Positions 36,937 through 61,734 of a DNA stretch of 64,000 nt are shown here, one piece after another. The notes under the pieces were generated by a model. It did not search any database, had not been told where the DNA came from, and worked only from the letters and a program-made list of their open reading frames with translations. This DNA is from a cyanobacterium endosymbiont of Epithemia clementina EcSB (GTDB taxonomy: Bacteria > Cyanobacteriota > Cyanobacteriia > Cyanobacteriales > Microcystaceae). The stretch is from positions 1 through 64,000 of the forward strand of contig NZ_CP123991.1 of assembly GCF_029919255.1 (NCBI RefSeq). The letters are read 5' to 3'. The number at the start of each line of letters is the position of its first letter. Position 1 is the stretch's first letter. The translations under genes and the position numbers were made by a program.

Positions 36937-37765
36937 TTTTGTAAATTTCAATATGTGGTGTGTGTTTATAAGCGTGTTCCTATGCTGAGCCATATCTAAA
37001 GACTGGGGTTTCTCGTTGAATGGCTAAAACCTTTTAAATACCATTCAAGTATCCAGAATCTACAATTACCTCAATTCTAAATAGGTGAAGAAAGATTGAT
37101 CGTTTGGAGTAACTTTTTATAAGTTATTCTCGTTTACCTCAAAATAAATTTTTAAAGGAGGAACAATTTATATGTCTATTTTTTTAGAAAGAGTTAATTG
37201 ATTATTTTCTCTTATCGAACTAAAAAAAAGAACTTTGCAAGGCTAATAATCATACACATAATGTTTTTTGAGACTATAAAGACTACAAAGACCAGAAAAC
37301 ATAAATTTATGTCTCATTTTCGTTAAAGTGTTGCAGGAGAAAGAGTTCTCAAACATCACTTATAGTGGTGCAATCTGCTTATTTTTTAAACATATATAAA
37401 AACTTCTATATCTTGTTAGGATAGGAGAAAAATCAGTAGTACATCATAGCTTTACATTACCTCTGAGGGAATGCTATTAAAAATCATCAGCAATAAATAT
37501 ATTGGAATTATCCAGGATAATAATAACTTTAAATGCTCTTTAATTTTAGCTTGTCGTCAAAACTAAGGGGTATTATTCTCTATAAGTTTACCATCATTAT
37601 CAGTAAATATAATTCGGAAAAATCATCTAATACATGATTGATTCTAAACAGTTAATAACAGTTAAAAAGATATATCAAAAATTAACTGCTGAAAAATTTT
37701 AGAAGTCATAACTAGGATTCTGCGTTTCCTTTCCATTATATAATGGAAAGGAAACGCCAGTCTCT
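36937..37765. other. Gap with an orphan ribosome binding site
   Basis: At 37157 a good AGGAGG sequence precedes ATG (37172), but the frame closes after nine codons (MSIFLERVN). Protein-like fragments such as GIIQDNNNFKCSLILACRQN appear near 37494 on the plus strand, hinting at a decayed gene. A short palindrome (37729-37750, CTTTCCATTATATAATGGAAAG) lies just upstream of the tRNA. Confidence 0.35.
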
Positions 37766-38937: not shown

Positions 38938-40422
38938 ATGAACTCTATCATGGTGGTAGGAACAACGTCCCACGCCGGAAAATCTTTTCTCACTGCAGCT
39001 ATTTGTCGAATTTTAGTTCGTCAAGGATGGAATGTTACCCCATTTAAAGGGCAAAATATGGCATTGAATGCCTATATTACTCATGATGGTGGGGAAATCG
39101 GGCACGCCCAGGCAGTACAGGCGTGGGCAGCTAAAATATCCCCTACGGTCGAAATGAATCCCATTTTACTGAAACCACAAGGAAATATGGTTTCCCAAGT
39201 CATTATGAAGGGAAAAATGATAGGAACAACCCATGCGGCCGAATATTACGAAAAGTATTTTGATAAAGGATGGAATGCTATTACATCATGTCTTGAGCAT
39301 CTAAAAACAAGGTATGACATGATCGTCTGTGAAGGTGCCGGAAGTCCTGCTGAAATAAATCTAAAACACCGGGATTTAACAAATATGCGAGTCGCCCGCT
39401 ATTTAAATGCAGCGACCATTTTGGTAGTAGATATTGATCGCGGAGGAGCATTTGCTCATGTGGTGGGAACCTTACAACTTCTTGAATCTGAAGAAAGGGC
39501 ATTAATTAAGGGTATTATTATCAATAAGTTTCGGGGACAGCGATCGTTATTGGATTCAGGTATTGATTGGTTAGAAAATTACACTGGAATTCCTGTCTTG
39601 GGAGTTATTCCCTGGCGTGATGTTGTATTTCCTTCGGAAGATTCTTTAAATTTATTAGATCGGCAATCATCTAATACAAAAGGAGAGTTAACCATTAATG
39701 TTCTTCGCTTACCTCACATTGCAAATTTTACAGATTTTGATCCTTTAGATGCAGAACCAACAGTTAATTTAAAATATCTTAATCTACAAGATTCTTTAGA
39801 CTATCCTGACGCAGTAATTATTCCAGGCTCCAAAACTACTATCGCTGATTTGATTGAACTTCATAAAAGTGGAATGGCAAAAAAAATACAAGATTATATA
39901 AAGTCGGGAGGTATTGTTTTTGGGATTTGCGGCGGGTTTCAAATGTTAGGAAAACAGATATTTGATCCTGGGCAATTAGAGGGCAATCAGGATTACTCTT
40001 TAGGACTAAATTTACTTCCAATGAAAACAGTTATTACCCCTAAAAAGATTTGCCGTCAACGACAAGTAATATCTAATTATCCAGAATCTAATTTAATCGT
40101 AACAGGGTATGAAATTCACCAAGGAATTACTTGTTTGATTAAGTCCTCAAACATAGAAAAAGCTATCACTTTGTATTCTTTATTTGATGATTCTAGTTTA
40201 GGGGTTGTTAACAATACTTATTCTGTTTGGGGGTGTTATCTACATGAACTATTTAATAATGGAGTCTGGCGACGGACTTGGTTAAATTTTCTGTGTCAAC
40301 GTAGGGGTTTATCTATTTTACCTACAGCGATTAGTAATTACTGCGAACAACGGGACACCAATCTTGATATATTAGCTGATTTAGTGGAGGAATTTGTTGA
40401 TCTAAAACCAGTATTAAATTAG
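38938..40422 (+). CDS. cobQ: Cobyric acid synthase
   Basis: ATP- and glutamine-dependent amidation of four side-chain carboxylates of the corrin ring (adenosylcobyrinate a,c-diamide to adenosylcobyric acid). It has 494 residues, complete. The N-terminal synthetase domain has MVVGTTSHAGKSFLTAAICR and FKGQNMALNAYITHDGGEIG, the middle CEGAGSPAEINLKHRDLTNM; the C-terminal class I amidotransferase domain has the nucleophile Cys in VFGICGGFQMLGKQ and the His in VWGCYLHELFNN. With cobK at 43.7 kb and a CobW-family gene at 62.4 kb, this shows corrinoid synthesis is retained. A ferredoxin-like gene follows 35 bases on. Confidence 0.97.
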   Translation: MNSIMVVGTTSHAGKSFLTAAICRILVRQGWNVTPFKGQNMALNAYITHDGGEIGHAQAVQAWAAKISPTVEMNPILLKPQGNMVSQVIMKGKMIGTTHAAEYYEKYFDKGWNAITSCLEHLKTRYDMIVCEGAGSPAEINLKHRDLTNMRVARYLNAATILVVDIDRGGAFAHVVGTLQLLESEERALIKGIIINKFRGQRSLLDSGIDWLENYTGIPVLGVIPWRDVVFPSEDSLNLLDRQSSNTKGELTINVLRLPHIANFTDFDPLDAEPTVNLKYLNLQDSLDYPDAVIIPGSKTTIADLIELHKSGMAKKIQDYIKSGGIVFGICGGFQMLGKQIFDPGQLEGNQDYSLGLNLLPMKTVITPKKICRQRQVISNYPESNLIVTGYEIHQGITCLIKSSNIEKAITLYSLFDDSSLGVVNNTYSVWGCYLHELFNNGVWRRTWLNFLCQRRGLSILPTAISNYCEQRDTNLDILADLVEEFVDLKPVLN

Positions 40423-42052: not shown

Positions 42053-42108
42053 TATTGGGCTTAATCGTAGATGGTATCGATAATTACCATCTACGATTAA
42101 GCCCAATA
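42053..42108. repeat. Perfect inverted repeat, 24-bp arms
   Basis: 42053-42076 (core GGGCTTAATCGTAGATGG) pairs exactly with 42085-42108 over an 8-base loop. It is one of the least AT-rich hairpins in the window. It sits about 150 bases past the 3' end of the minus-strand remnant ending at 42255 and may have been its terminator. Confidence 0.85.
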
Positions 42109-43698: not shown

Positions 43699-44481
43699 TT
43701 ATATTTTACTCATGCCTAAAATATAAAAATATTGACGACAAAACCTAATTATATCTGATAACTTATCTGTTTGTTGAGGATAGCTAACTAAAGGTCGTTT
43801 AATAATAATTATTTTTACTCCTAATTCAGTTGCTACTAACCTTTTTATTAACTCTCCTCCCTGTCTTCCGGATGCTTTAGTAACGACTAAAGAAATATTC
43901 CATTGCTGCCATAATGCTTGTTCTAATTCTGCACTAATAGGAGGCCGTAGGGCAATTAGGTGATCATTGCTAAAACCGGCTTTTATAGCCACTTCTAATG
44001 ATTCTATTTTAGGAAGAACACGAGCAAATAAAACAGCACGACCTTGCCAAACTTTAAATAAGGGTAATGCTTTATAGCCAATAGTTAATAAAGTTCTTTC
44101 TCCTTGAAGATAATTACCTTTAATCAAAGTATCAAAATTATCGAGAGTAATGATTTCAGGAGAAGGAGGAAGGGATACCCGTTCATAGCGAAGATAAGGT
44201 ATGCAATTTTCTTTGGAAACAGTGATTACCTGCCGAGAAATTTGCACCGCATAAGGATGAGAAGCATCCACAATAGCGATAATCTTTTCTTGTTGACATA
44301 AGAGTCGAATCTGGCCTGGATTTAAAGTACCTATTTTGATAGTTAAATAGGAGCTTATAGGATAGAGAGTTTTAGCATTTTCTGTAGTTACAGTAACGAG
44401 ACAAGTGAGTCGTTCTGAAACAATAGATTCAGCAATTGTGACACTATCTCTTGTTCCTCCAATTAACCAAATTTTTTTCAC
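43699..44481 (-). CDS. cobK: Precorrin-6A (cobalt-precorrin-6A) reductase
   Basis: NADPH-dependent reduction of a ring double bond in cobalamin synthesis (CobK/CbiJ family). It has 260 residues, normal length. Signs are the N-terminal IWLIGGTRDSVTIAESIV nucleotide-binding start, IVDASHPYAVQISRQVI, YLRYERVSLPPSPEI, LLTIGYKALPLFK, FARVLP, and the late LVVTKASGRQGGELIKRLVA. Its presence with cobQ supports a retained pathway. The distinction between cobalt-free and cobalt-bound substrate cannot be made from sequence, though cyanobacteria generally use the early-cobalt route. A small membrane protein gene lies 34 bases upstream on the same strand. Confidence 0.93.
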   Translation of the reverse strand: MKKIWLIGGTRDSVTIAESIVSERLTCLVTVTTENAKTLYPISSYLTIKIGTLNPGQIRLLCQQEKIIAIVDASHPYAVQISRQVITVSKENCIPYLRYERVSLPPSPEIITLDNFDTLIKGNYLQGERTLLTIGYKALPLFKVWQGRAVLFARVLPKIESLEVAIKAGFSNDHLIALRPPISAELEQALWQQWNISLVVTKASGRQGGELIKRLVATELGVKIIIIKRPLVSYPQQTDKLSDIIRFCRQYFYILGMSKI

Positions 44482-47162: not shown

Positions 47163-47198
47163 AAGTTCAAATAATTATTTAAATTTTTAACTTAATTT

Positions 47199-47914
47199 AT
47201 GACTACAGTTCAAACTAAATTGAGTATTCAGGACAGTCCAAGTTTACTTACAAGTATAGGGAGTTTAGAAAGTATCTATTAATCCATCCATAATATTGTT
47301 AGTGAAATCTATCAACTACTCAACAATTAAGTAAGTTATGTACAACAGGTAATGTAGTCTTGGGTTGTCAATACCTTGAAAATGAACCCCGTTTTAATGC
47401 TGAAACTAGATTCAATTTTACAATCCAATGGACCAGTTTGCATAAGTGCTTCATTAATAAATGGAATTAAACAAAAAATAAGTGGCGCAATCAAGGTTTA
47501 TCACGTTGAAATTTCCATTGAATTAGCTATCTTCTTTAAAGACAAAGTGCTTGAATTATTTTTGCTCTCAATTCAGCTAAATTAGCCGAAAAACTCAAAA
47601 TTTTTATTTATAATATTTTTACAGAATTTCGTATTTTCGAATAGCTCAAAAAGTAAAAAAACAACTTTTAAAGTAATACATGGGAATTAACTGCTCAACC
47701 GTCTTCAGAAACGGGGCGGAGCCATTGGTGGGGTTATCCTGAATAGCTAAGGGAACATTACTGCGGGAACCTCTATAGGGGTTAATTTTAAAGATTAGAG
47801 CTGATGAGTGACTCAGTGATGACTGACTACGAACTATGCTTATGCTGACTCCCACAGTGATTAGGTTGTACGGGAGTGGGAAAAATATCGTCAATAGCAA
47901 TGTCTAGCACTTAC
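47199..47914 (+). pseudogene. Single-frame nonsense pseudogene, unidentified
   Basis: From ATG 47199 one frame can be read for about 235 codons: MTTVQTKLSIQDSPSLLTSI, GSLESIY, stop, SIHNIVSEIYQLLNN, stop, VSYVQQVM, stop, SWVVNTLKMNPVLMLKLDSI, then an uninterrupted stretch (LQSNGPVCISASLINGIKQK, ISGAIKVYHVEISIELAIFF) to a stop at 47583, and further on QKRGGAIGGVILNS, stop, GNITAGTSIGVNFKD and DSHSD, stop, VVREWEKYRQ. Most stops sit where Gln would fit. It ends in front of an 18-bp hairpin. The family is unknown to me. Confidence 0.55.
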
Positions 47915-47942
47915 CTGAATGAAAATTCAGGTAAGTGCTAGA
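47903..47942. repeat. Perfect inverted repeat, 18-bp arms, GAAA loop
   Basis: 47903-47920 pairs exactly with 47925-47942 around a GAAA tetraloop. It separates the plus-strand dead gene (47199) from the minus-strand remnant ending at 47977, so it may once have been a shared terminator. Confidence 0.8.
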
Positions 47943-47976
47943 ATGAACCTGTCTGATGCTATGTAAAAATCCAAAA

Positions 47977-48117
47977 CTAACCAAAGGAAATTAGCCGCAA
48001 CAGTTCTTGAATCAAAGTTGGCTTATTACTTGGATTAAAATCTGCAAAATCATCCTCCCCACCTATCAAGATAGTTTTTCCATAAAATAACTCTGGAATG
48101 AAACCTGACAGGATTTA
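47977..48117 (-). pseudogene. C-terminal fragment of an unidentified gene
   Basis: A minus-strand frame open for about 43 codons reads SGFIPELFYGKTILIGGEDD, FADFNPSNKPTLIQELLRLI, SFG, stop. It is strongly protein-like and looks like a true C-terminus, but the upstream part is disrupted by stops. The relic of psb30 lies 94 bases upstream on the same strand. Confidence 0.5.
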
Positions 48118-48210
48118 TGGGTTATTGTAACTAGGAGACTACAGAAAACAAAGAGTAGGTCATAGACGATAGGAACAACTAGCTATCAACTATTTACTAT
48201 TTGTTAATTT

Positions 48211-48330
48211 CTAGAAACCACCACCACAAAACGTCAGCAAACGGATAACCATAGGACCTGAGATTGTAATTAAGCCGACAAAAGTTAATTGAAAAATAGA
48301 ATCTAGATTTAAGGCTGTTAATAATTCCAT
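48211..48330 (-). pseudogene. psb30: psb30 (ycf12) photosystem II subunit, relic
   Basis: A 39-codon frame from ATG 48328-48330 reads [39 protein letters not shown], stop. Psb30/Ycf12 of cyanobacteria is about 39 residues with MELxAALNLEPIFQLTFxxL, then IxLAGPxVIFLLAFRGGDL. Position by position the match is clear, but the transmembrane core has an Arg where Phe is expected (VIRLL for VIFLL), and the C-terminal FRGGDL has become FCGGGF. The frame is intact, but the substitutions suggest loss of selection, in keeping with no other photosystem gene being present. It could still be expressed. Confidence 0.75.
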
Positions 48331-48485
48331 TTTTTCTTCTTAACGTTTCTGTCATAAGTTGAGTGTGAAGGGTAAAGAGCAAAAAAACATAGTCAATAAC
48401 GTCTGACAATATTTCAGTTTTTTTAAGTCATAATACAAAAATCCATAAAATTTTATTACAAACTCAGGATAAGGTTCTTTAAATT

Positions 48486-48857
48486 ATGGCGACTTGGCAA
48501 TGTGTAACAGAATGTGGAGCTTGTTGCAATCTTGATCCAGTAGATTACCCGAACTTAGAAGATTATTTGACCTTAGACGAAATAACCCATTATTTTAGTT
48601 TAGTAGGAAAGGGGAGGTGGTGTATCAACTTTGATCATGACACCCGTAAATGTCGTATTTATCAAAAACGTCCCGATTTTTGTCGGGTAACACCTCATAC
48701 ATTTGAGAAAATGTATAAGATTGAGAGAACAGAGTTTAATGACTTTGCCATCGAATGTTGTCAGCAACAAATCGCAGGAGTTTACGGAGAAAATAGCCTC
48801 GAAATGGAGCATTATAAACAAGAAGTAGTAGTAGATAGGAAAACGAGAAGTGAATAA
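48486..48857 (+). CDS. YkgJ family cysteine cluster protein
   Basis: 123 residues of the YkgJ/UPF0153 family (PF03692), thought to bind zinc or iron through conserved Cys. Cys residues lie in CVTECGACCNLDPVDYPNLE (6, 10, 13, 14), RWCINFDHDTRKCRIYQKRP (46, 56), DFCRVTP and ECCQQQ. The overall pattern C-x3-C-x2-CC ... C-x8-C-x-I-Y-x-x-R-P-x-x-C is complete. The function is unknown. It is followed by the remains of a GDT1-type manganese exporter on the same strand, with which it was probably linked. Confidence 0.9.
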   Translation: MATWQCVTECGACCNLDPVDYPNLEDYLTLDEITHYFSLVGKGRWCINFDHDTRKCRIYQKRPDFCRVTPHTFEKMYKIERTEFNDFAIECCQQQIAGVYGENSLEMEHYKQEVVVDRKTRSE

Positions 48858-55137: not shown

Positions 55138-55186
55138 GGCAAATTCCTCAGTAAAAAACATATGTTTTTTTACTGAGGAATTTGCC
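55138..55186. repeat. Inverted repeat, 23-bp arms with one bulge
   Basis: GGCAAATTCCTCAGT with an A run (55138-55160) pairs with 55163-55186; one extra T bulges in the right arm. It stands just after the plus-strand remnant ending at 55132 and may have been its terminator. Confidence 0.75.
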
Positions 55187-60230: not shown

Positions 60231-60698
60231 ATGCTGACTATTATTGGCTGTGGTAATCTGAATAGATCTGATGATGCTGTGGGGGTTGTAATTTCTCAAA
60301 AGCTTCAAAGATTTCTTGTAGAACATCATGTTTCTAATGTTCGTGTCTATGATTGTGGAACGGCTGGAATAGAAGTTATGTTCCAAGCTAGGGGTAGTGA
60401 GAAATTAATTATTATTGATGCGTGTTCAACCAACTCCTCTCCAGGAACTATTTTTGAAGTTCCTGGAGAGGAATTAGAAAATTTACCAACACCAAGTTAT
60501 AATCTACATGATTTTCGGTGGGATCATGCCTTAGCAGCCGGACGCAAAATTTTTAAAAAAAATTTTCCTCAAGAAGTAATCGTCTACTTAATTGAGGCAA
60601 AAAACTTAGAATTAGGATTGGAATTAACTCCTCCAATACAAAAAGCTGCTGTAGTAGTTTTAGAAAAGTTAAAAAAGCAAGTTCTAAACTGGTCATAA
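60231..60698 (+). CDS. Hydrogenase maturation protease (HupW-like)
   Basis: Cleaves the C-terminal extension of the large subunit of a NiFe hydrogenase after nickel insertion. It has 155 residues, normal length. The nickel-sensing residues of the HybD family have counterparts here: the acidic pair Asp14-Asp15 in GCGNLNRSDDAVGVVI (the family has E or D), Asp63 in IIIDACSTNS, and His93 in YNLHDFRWDHALAAG. It is likely the protease for uptake hydrogenase (HupW), which recovers hydrogen from nitrogenase; a bidirectional-hydrogenase protease (HoxW) is the alternative. The 3' end abuts the convergent [2Fe-2S] protein gene with one base between stops. Confidence 0.9.
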   Translation: MLTIIGCGNLNRSDDAVGVVISQKLQRFLVEHHVSNVRVYDCGTAGIEVMFQARGSEKLIIIDACSTNSSPGTIFEVPGEELENLPTPSYNLHDFRWDHALAAGRKIFKKNFPQEVIVYLIEAKNLELGLELTPPIQKAAVVVLEKLKKQVLNWS

Positions 60699-61248: not shown

Positions 61249-61734
61249 ATTTTTTTATTTATTAATAAAGTAATTGATAATTAAATCTATTAGTGATATC
61301 AACATTGATTTAACTAGTAGATTAATTCTCAACAGAAAGCTAAGCATTACCTAACTACATTCTAAAGCTGGGCGAAATCAATAGGACTAGTTAGAATTTA
61401 CAAGACTGTTAGTATATAAATACTAACAGTCTTGTAAATTCTAAAGACAAATTATATACACTTCAACGCTCACTTCAATTAGCTTCTATAGCTTAAGTTA
61501 ATATCAAAGAACGGCCAGCTTAATCTATCGATATCAATAAACGCTTATTAGTCTCAAGTATCTCAATAAAATTGATTAGTGTCAAAAACAATTCAGAACT
61601 AGATTCAATCTGGATTCACCCATTTTGCCCTAAGCCTAAATTTTTTAGTATATTCTTTAGGGGGTCAATAAACTGTTGCTAAAATGAGGTATTTTATATA
61701 TGTATAGTTTAACATAAAGAAGGGGACAACGAAA
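61249..61734. other. Divergent intergenic region
   Basis: Lies between divergent genes. Apart from the perfect hairpin at 61391-61444, nothing is readable. The last 50 bases before dps have TATATATGTATAGT and a GAAGGGG ribosome-binding-like sequence, but promoter boxes are not certain. Confidence 0.45.
61391..61444. repeat. Perfect inverted repeat, 25-bp arms
   Basis: 61391-61415 (core TTACAAGACTGTTAGT) pairs exactly with 61420-61444 over a 4-base loop. It lies between two divergent genes, 140 bases from one start and 290 from the other, so it cannot be their terminator; an operator or a decayed terminator are options. Confidence 0.85.

Follow-up and report, generated by a model that had tools for sequence, protein, structure and literature searches.

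The closest described cases of photosystem gene decay are those of the spheroid bodies of diatoms, whose descent from photosynthetic cyanobacteria is already established (PMC2246100, PMC5638926). In the spheroid body of Rhopalodia gibba, pseudogenes of psbC and psbD were described in 2008, either truncated or with stop codons (PMC2246100). Concerning the spheroid-body genome RgSB, the sections of PMC5638926 drawn on here report no working photosystem genes, and in the same source the Rhopalodia gibberula spheroid body is credited with chlorophyll-synthesis genes that have open frames and a raised dN, and which were suggested to be pseudogenes without visible lesions. In the part of PMC12903740 used here, 24 photosystem II core proteins are given as lacking an orthologue in any rhopalodian endosymbiont. 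A limited literature search yielded no paper joining 'Psb30' with 'spheroid body'.

The locus considered here is a psb30 (ycf12) relic found in the window, that is, in the whole analyzed stretch of 64,000 nucleotides. Like psbC and psbD of the R. gibba spheroid body, which belongs to the same endosymbiont group, it is a photosystem II gene that decays now that photosynthesis has been lost, but the R. gibba genes are truncated or interrupted by stops, while the psb30 frame is still open. With the R. gibberula chlorophyll-synthesis genes, it shares the condition of being the open frame of a suspected pseudogene. Chlorophyll-synthesis genes are much longer than psb30, and the short length of the latter is the likely reason for the survival of its frame.

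Identity and surroundings of the psb30 frame

The features of the locus are summarized in Table 1. The translation of the relic is complete, with the ATG, the 39 codons of the frame and the TAG all intact. The Pfam model PSII_Ycf12 (PF05969) covers residues 8–37 with 37.9 bits (cut-off 24, E 1.7e-9), and the best solved chain for the 39-residue product is 7n8o_Y, over residues 1–38 (E 8.5e-11). In a profile search of the 3.07 Mb genome, the frame was the sole match to PF05969 at E ≤ 10. In a control with 14 well-known genomes, none gave a match over the cut-off. This speaks for the specificity of the model; its sensitivity is not complete, because the cyanobacterium Synechococcus elongatus, which was among the 14, stays under the cut-off.

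The relic is divergent to a gene of the CxxCxxCC family (PF03692). The same arrangement occurs in SU2, UBA12306 and Rippkaea orientalis PCC 8801, i.e., in 3/3 of the same-genus genomes that keep psb30; these three form the photosynthetic comparison set used in this work, UBA12306 being a metagenome-assembled genome taken as free-living. The synteny with three photosynthetic relatives excludes a chance likeness, and the frame is a psb30 relic from a photosynthetic ancestor. So, the Pfam match, the solved chain and the synteny bear out the proposal of an earlier note, made from the sequence alone, that a 39-codon minus-strand frame aligns with Psb30/Ycf12.

Compared with the Psb30/Ycf12 of the three relatives, the frame has the same length (UBA12306 is one codon shorter), N-terminal half, neighbour and orientation. 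It differs from them in 11 residue changes with respect to the inferred ancestor, including F30R, R35C and D38G, in its weakened start signals and in having no complex left to join. By eye, the stretch that reaches up to the start codon is CAGGAGAAAACATG in SU2, UBA12306 and PCC 8801, and AAGAAGAAAAAATG in the window. A generic promoter scan of positions 48180–48520 gave two sites, the chance expectation being 1.3.

Table 1. Position and state of the elements of the psb30 locus in the window.
Feature	Positions	Strand	Remarks
psb30 (ycf12) relic, open 39-codon frame	48211..48330	-	12 replacement and 7 silent changes with respect to the inferred ancestor
Former ribosome-binding stretch	48331..48341	-	Before the ATG: AAGAAGAAAAA here, CAGGAGAAAAC in SU2, UBA12306 and PCC 8801; by eye
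Former -10-like stretch	48387..48400	-	GTTATTGACTATGT here, TATTATAGACTATGG in SU2, UBA12306 and PCC 8801; by eye
Intact divergent neighbour, CxxCxxCC (PF03692) protein	48486..48857	+	Syntenic anchor; control for purifying selection
Broken remnant, presumably isoaspartyl peptidase/L-asparaginase-like	47170..48150 (limits estimated)	+	Open in SU2 and PCC 8801; neutral yardstick

Host genome and its other photosystem genes

The genome consists of one contig of 3,072,807 bases, and the GC content of the window is 0.32. The traits of spheroid-body genomes (2.5–3.1 Mb, low GC, broken photosystems and grouping with the spheroid-body genomes EtSB and RgSB) are all found in it. In a tree of the flanks from seven genomes, the three photosynthetic ones separated from the spheroid bodies at support 100, while the branching among the spheroid bodies was poorly resolved in the flank trees (support 55–79). 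From its sequence, the genome would be of the diatom spheroid-body (diazoplast) type, with a life inside a diatom suggested by its relatives. A further genome, EpSB, was taken as that of the spheroid body of E. pelagica.

Nine photosystem families were searched genome-wide (PF05969, PF00124, PF00223, PF00421, PF02533, PF01737, PF00283, PF06596 and PF05151). Inside positions 1–64000 only PF05969 was matched, so that, for these families, it is correct that the window holds no other photosystem gene, as the earlier note had stated. That note had also proposed a search for psbA, psbD and psaA in the rest of the genome. PF00124 (D1/D2; psbA/D) gave three matches at two places with 2–5 stops each, PF00223 (PsaA/PsaB) gave four matches at one place with 2–19 stops, and PF00421 (CP43/CP47; psbB/C) gave a single sub-threshold piece with three stops. 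For PF02533 (PsbK), a match above the cut-off, containing a stop, was accompanied by a weak one, and by eye the frame is broken; for PF01737 (PsbZ), the match above the cut-off also contains a stop, and a further piece, weakly matched, lies in a different frame. In the control searches at E ≤ 1, PsbK was matched in 4/14 genomes and PsbZ in 6/14, over the cut-off in one genome each.

The results with other small subunits were less clear-cut. PF00283 (cytochrome b559) matched a sub-threshold piece without internal stop, the control search giving matches in 8/14 genomes. This piece is probably part of a broken psbF/psbL remnant spread over frames, of which the PsbL part is our assumption, though it may be a chance match; when two frames of the putative remnant were rescored, only one of them matched b559, and that below the cut-off. 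PF06596 (PsbX) also gave a sub-threshold match (E 0.04, 18.6 bits with a cut-off of 25; control matches in 6/14 genomes). The PsbX-like frame (G000:C1:611863-611928, minus strand; L075) is open from an ATG for 33 codons and then reaches a stop. It may be another short relic of photosystem II that is still open in part, or a product of chance. The profile search with PF05151 (PsbM) gave no match in the genome. The psbK, psbZ and probable psbF/psbL remnants lie elsewhere in the genome (L073, L076, L077 and L047), with stops or broken frames.

Considering the partners of a working Psb30 (D1/D2, CP43/CP47, PsbK and PsbZ), all their matches have stops or broken frames. According to the part of PMC4862242 used here, Psb30 belongs with PsbK and PsbZ in the CP43 pre-complex and, since the psbK, psbZ and psbB/C remnants are broken, the module joined by Psb30 is broken in this genome. 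It is hardly conceivable that the genome is that of a photosynthetic cyanobacterium and that the psb30 changes are sequencing errors: stops interrupt every psbA/D, psbB/C and psaA/B match, the completeness score of the genome being 99.78%, and the psb30 substitutions are partly common to independently sequenced sister genomes.

Residues of the relic and state of psb30 in sister genomes

Psb30 was searched for in 59 genomes, including the one under study, and 52 gave a match. The seven without a match were three other spheroid bodies, two genomes of 1.4–1.5 Mb (G013 and G021), which by their size we take to resemble UCYN-A, and two genomes of the same order (G037 and G044). Residues were compared with the best-scoring 30 of the 51 other matching genomes, a set that contains several identical proteins and leans to the consensus. 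Nine of the 39 residues of the relic were absent from those 30 relatives (D10, S11, T22, M27, R30, T33, C35, G38 and F39). Position 30, an Arg in the relic, is Phe in 30/30 relatives; position 35, a Cys, is Arg in 29/30; and position 38, a Gly, is Asp or Asn in 30/30. So, F30, R35 and D/N38 of the working Psb30 are not kept, and the Arg in the membrane helix and the altered C-terminus (FCGGGF), on which the earlier note had remarked, are real departures from these relatives.

Concerning the sister spheroid bodies, psb30 was found beside the same neighbour gene, and broken, in 3/3 of the genomes examined. In RgSB it has a one-base deletion and stops; in EtSB, a TAA at codon 14 and the loss of the 3′ end; in EpSB, an ATA in place of the ATG, a TAA at codon 14 and a frameshift. 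That psb30 had wholly gone from EpSB was ruled out by this remnant at the orthologous place. With the poor resolution of the spheroid-body flank trees, the TAA that EtSB and EpSB both have at codon 14 may go back to one event or to two. At codons 5, 11, 24 and 27, the changes of the relic are common to, or fall on the same codons as, those of RgSB, EtSB and EpSB. Relaxation therefore looks older than the split of the sisters, and from these alignments the constraint on psb30 was probably gone before that split.

Selection and rate of change on the psb30 branch

Of the 19 changes that separate psb30 from the inferred ancestor, 12 are replacements and 7 are silent, codon 22 contributing one of each (13 and 6 if both are taken as replacement). 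Using the substitution spectrum counted from the non-coding flank, the omega of the branch was 0.79 (interval 0.29–2.4), a value lowered by the pre-symbiosis time under selection that the branch spans. NG86 omega was 0.02–0.10 for three pairs of photosynthetic relatives. For the relic it was 0.45 versus SU2, 0.26 versus UBA12306 and 0.32 versus PCC 8801, over paths that include selected branches, and for the working CxxCxxCC neighbour it was 0.23 versus SU2. The pairwise NG86 values were not taken as the main measure because they add the silent changes of the photosynthetic side and ignore the strong G/C-to-A/T bias. With an omega of 0.1, 12 or more replacements in 19 changes would have a probability of 1.5e-5; with an omega of 1, 12 or fewer would have one of 0.39. 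Purifying selection as strong as in the photosynthetic relatives (0.02–0.10) is excluded; weak selection is possible. The earlier note had named intact psbA, psbD and psbB, together with a dN/dS well below 1, as evidence against a relic. This combination was not found, the partners being broken; the branch omega, at 0.79, is not well below 1 either, although its interval reaches down to 0.29 and the NG86 values are 0.26–0.45.

The proportions of polarised sites changed were 20/109 (0.18) in psb30, 223/836 (0.27) in the asparaginase-like remnant and 40/273 in the CxxCxxCC neighbour. In Fisher tests, psb30 was slower than the remnant with P 0.06 and than all the non-coding flank with P 0.08, while the comparison with the working neighbour gave P 0.44. 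At the neutral rate about 30 changes would be expected in psb30, the Poisson probability of 19 or fewer being 0.02, or 0.05 by a second estimate. In RgSB and EtSB, the psb30 rates (0.278 and 0.290) did not differ from those of the flanks (P 0.82 and 1.0); the difference between the window and RgSB had P 0.11. The psb30 of EpSB, although broken, was slower than its flank (40/108 versus 404/803, P 0.01), so that a slow rate alone is no proof of use.

These rates bear on the possibility that selection on psb30 ended later here than in the sisters, the gene being kept for a while and its decay being recent. The rate in the window, lower than in the neutral remnant (0.183 versus 0.267) and than in RgSB and EtSB, is in agreement with it. 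However, changes at codons 5, 11, 24 and 27 are shared with the sisters or fall on the same codons, residues invariant in the 30 best-scoring relatives have been lost, the broken gene of EpSB is also slow, and no Fisher test of the psb30 in the window reaches 0.05. We consider this possibility unlikely. It is quite improbable, too, that a slightly constrained psb30 outlived photosystem II and that its membrane peptide is produced, or was until recently, for some use outside the photosystem.

A related alternative is that the 39-residue peptide is still made and, with photosystem II gone, serves in some new capacity as a small membrane protein. The intact ATG, frame and TAG, the still hydrophobic character of most of the predicted helix and the thylakoid membranes kept in the E. 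clementina endosymbiont, as described in the part of PMC11070190 used here, could accommodate it. It is nevertheless very improbable, in view of an omega that agrees with a value of 1 and greatly exceeds that of the photosynthetic relatives, the Arg within the helix, the start-site signals, which by eye are eroded, and the frame broken in all three sister genomes examined.

Probability of an open frame under neutrality

Neutral evolution of psb30 was simulated with 4000 runs for each of two substitution spectra, the AT-biased one being set by hand. With 20 substitutions, the frame stayed open in 24% and 30% of the runs, with a mean of 11.1–11.9 residue changes (11 observed); with 25 substitutions, it stayed open in 18% and 25%. 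When the indel rate of the asparaginase-like remnant was added (15 gap events in 1056 sites), an open frame was obtained in about 5% of cases at 20 substitutions, and with as many changes as the neutral rate predicts the chance would fall below about 5%. Not one indel occurred in psb30, against an expectation of about 1.7 (P 0.19).

Genes shorter than 50 codons number 11 for photosystem II and 3 for photosystem I in the account of PMC5126843 used here. With a chance of about 5% each, 0.7 survivors are expected among these 14, and one open frame is not surprising. Since an unselected short frame is open in about 5% of cases, recent use of psb30 is not needed either. The earlier note had argued that the frame is still open and that decay is thus recent or the peptide still made. 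This argument finds no support, given that relaxation looks older than the split of the sisters and that about 5% of such frames are open without selection.

Perfect hairpins and other observations in the window

The window contains 19–20 perfect hairpins with arms of 13–29 bases (20 listed, 19 without overlaps), at positions that include 460-521, 37722-37757, 42053-42108, 47903-47942, 55138-55186, 60435-60472 and 61391-61444. No such hairpin was present in one set of ten block-shuffled windows, and a second set of five averaged 0.2. In samples of 60 kb, perfect hairpins numbered 14 in RgSB, 20 in EtSB, 4 in EpSB, 4 in G013, 1 in PCC 8801 and 0 in SU2; the lower coding density of spheroid bodies may account for part of the excess.

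At least one flank could be placed in the RgSB sample for 17/19 hairpins, and for 2 of these 17 a hairpin of RgSB lay no more than 250 bases from the anchor. Both flanks aligned to RgSB within 33 bases for the hairpins at 37722, 40734, 47903, 55138, 58915 and 60435. RgSB had a perfect hairpin at 0/6 of these places, and its spacers there are of nearly the same length (45, 80, 44, 58, 69 and 40 bases, respectively), which suggests that the hairpins arose where they now lie, through template switching or the perfecting of imperfect repeats. They are possibly template-switch products accumulating in decaying DNA. The hairpin at 47903-47942 (18-base arms) lies within the asparaginase-like remnant, and no second copy of it was found in the genome with up to 3 mismatches allowed. 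The open reading frame 60231-60698 contains the one at 60435-60472 (15-base arms), and coding sequence may thus be reached by such events as well. The hairpin richness of the window and of two sister genomes may be worth more than the psb30 relic itself.

Two open genes of the window, at 38938-40422 and 43699-44481, resemble vitamin B12 synthesis genes, one of the pair being CbiJ/CobK and one, presumably, cobyric acid synthase-like. According to the sections of PMC5638926 used here, B12 genes are kept in RgSB, and 14/17 are lost or broken in EtSB.

Significance of the relic

It is very likely that psb30 is here a pseudogene yet to take a stop codon or a frameshift. The direct evidence consists of the homology, the synteny, the broken partners, a share of replacements far above that of the photosynthetic relatives, and the broken orthologues. 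We infer from it that no psb30 product is made and that the loss of photosystem II was the cause. The spheroid-body ancestor would have lost photosystem II and left the one-helix Psb30 of the CP43 module, with PsbK and PsbZ, without a partner, whereupon selection would have ended. The 117 bp would then have drifted, with replacements accumulating, the ribosome-binding and -10-like stretches eroding and the frames of the sisters breaking, while the frame in the window probably stayed open by luck, being a very small target.

The earlier note saw in the relic a clue that the lineage was photosynthetic. The relic was indeed inherited from a photosynthetic ancestor but, this ancestry being already known (PMC2246100, PMC5638926), it adds nothing new on the photosynthetic past of the lineage. 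It belongs to the ordinary decay of the genome of an endosymbiont that does not photosynthesize. It displays the decay of one gene at different stages, with an open frame under hardly any constraint here and broken frames in the three sisters, and it is a caution that, where a genome is shrinking, the openness of a short frame says little about its function.
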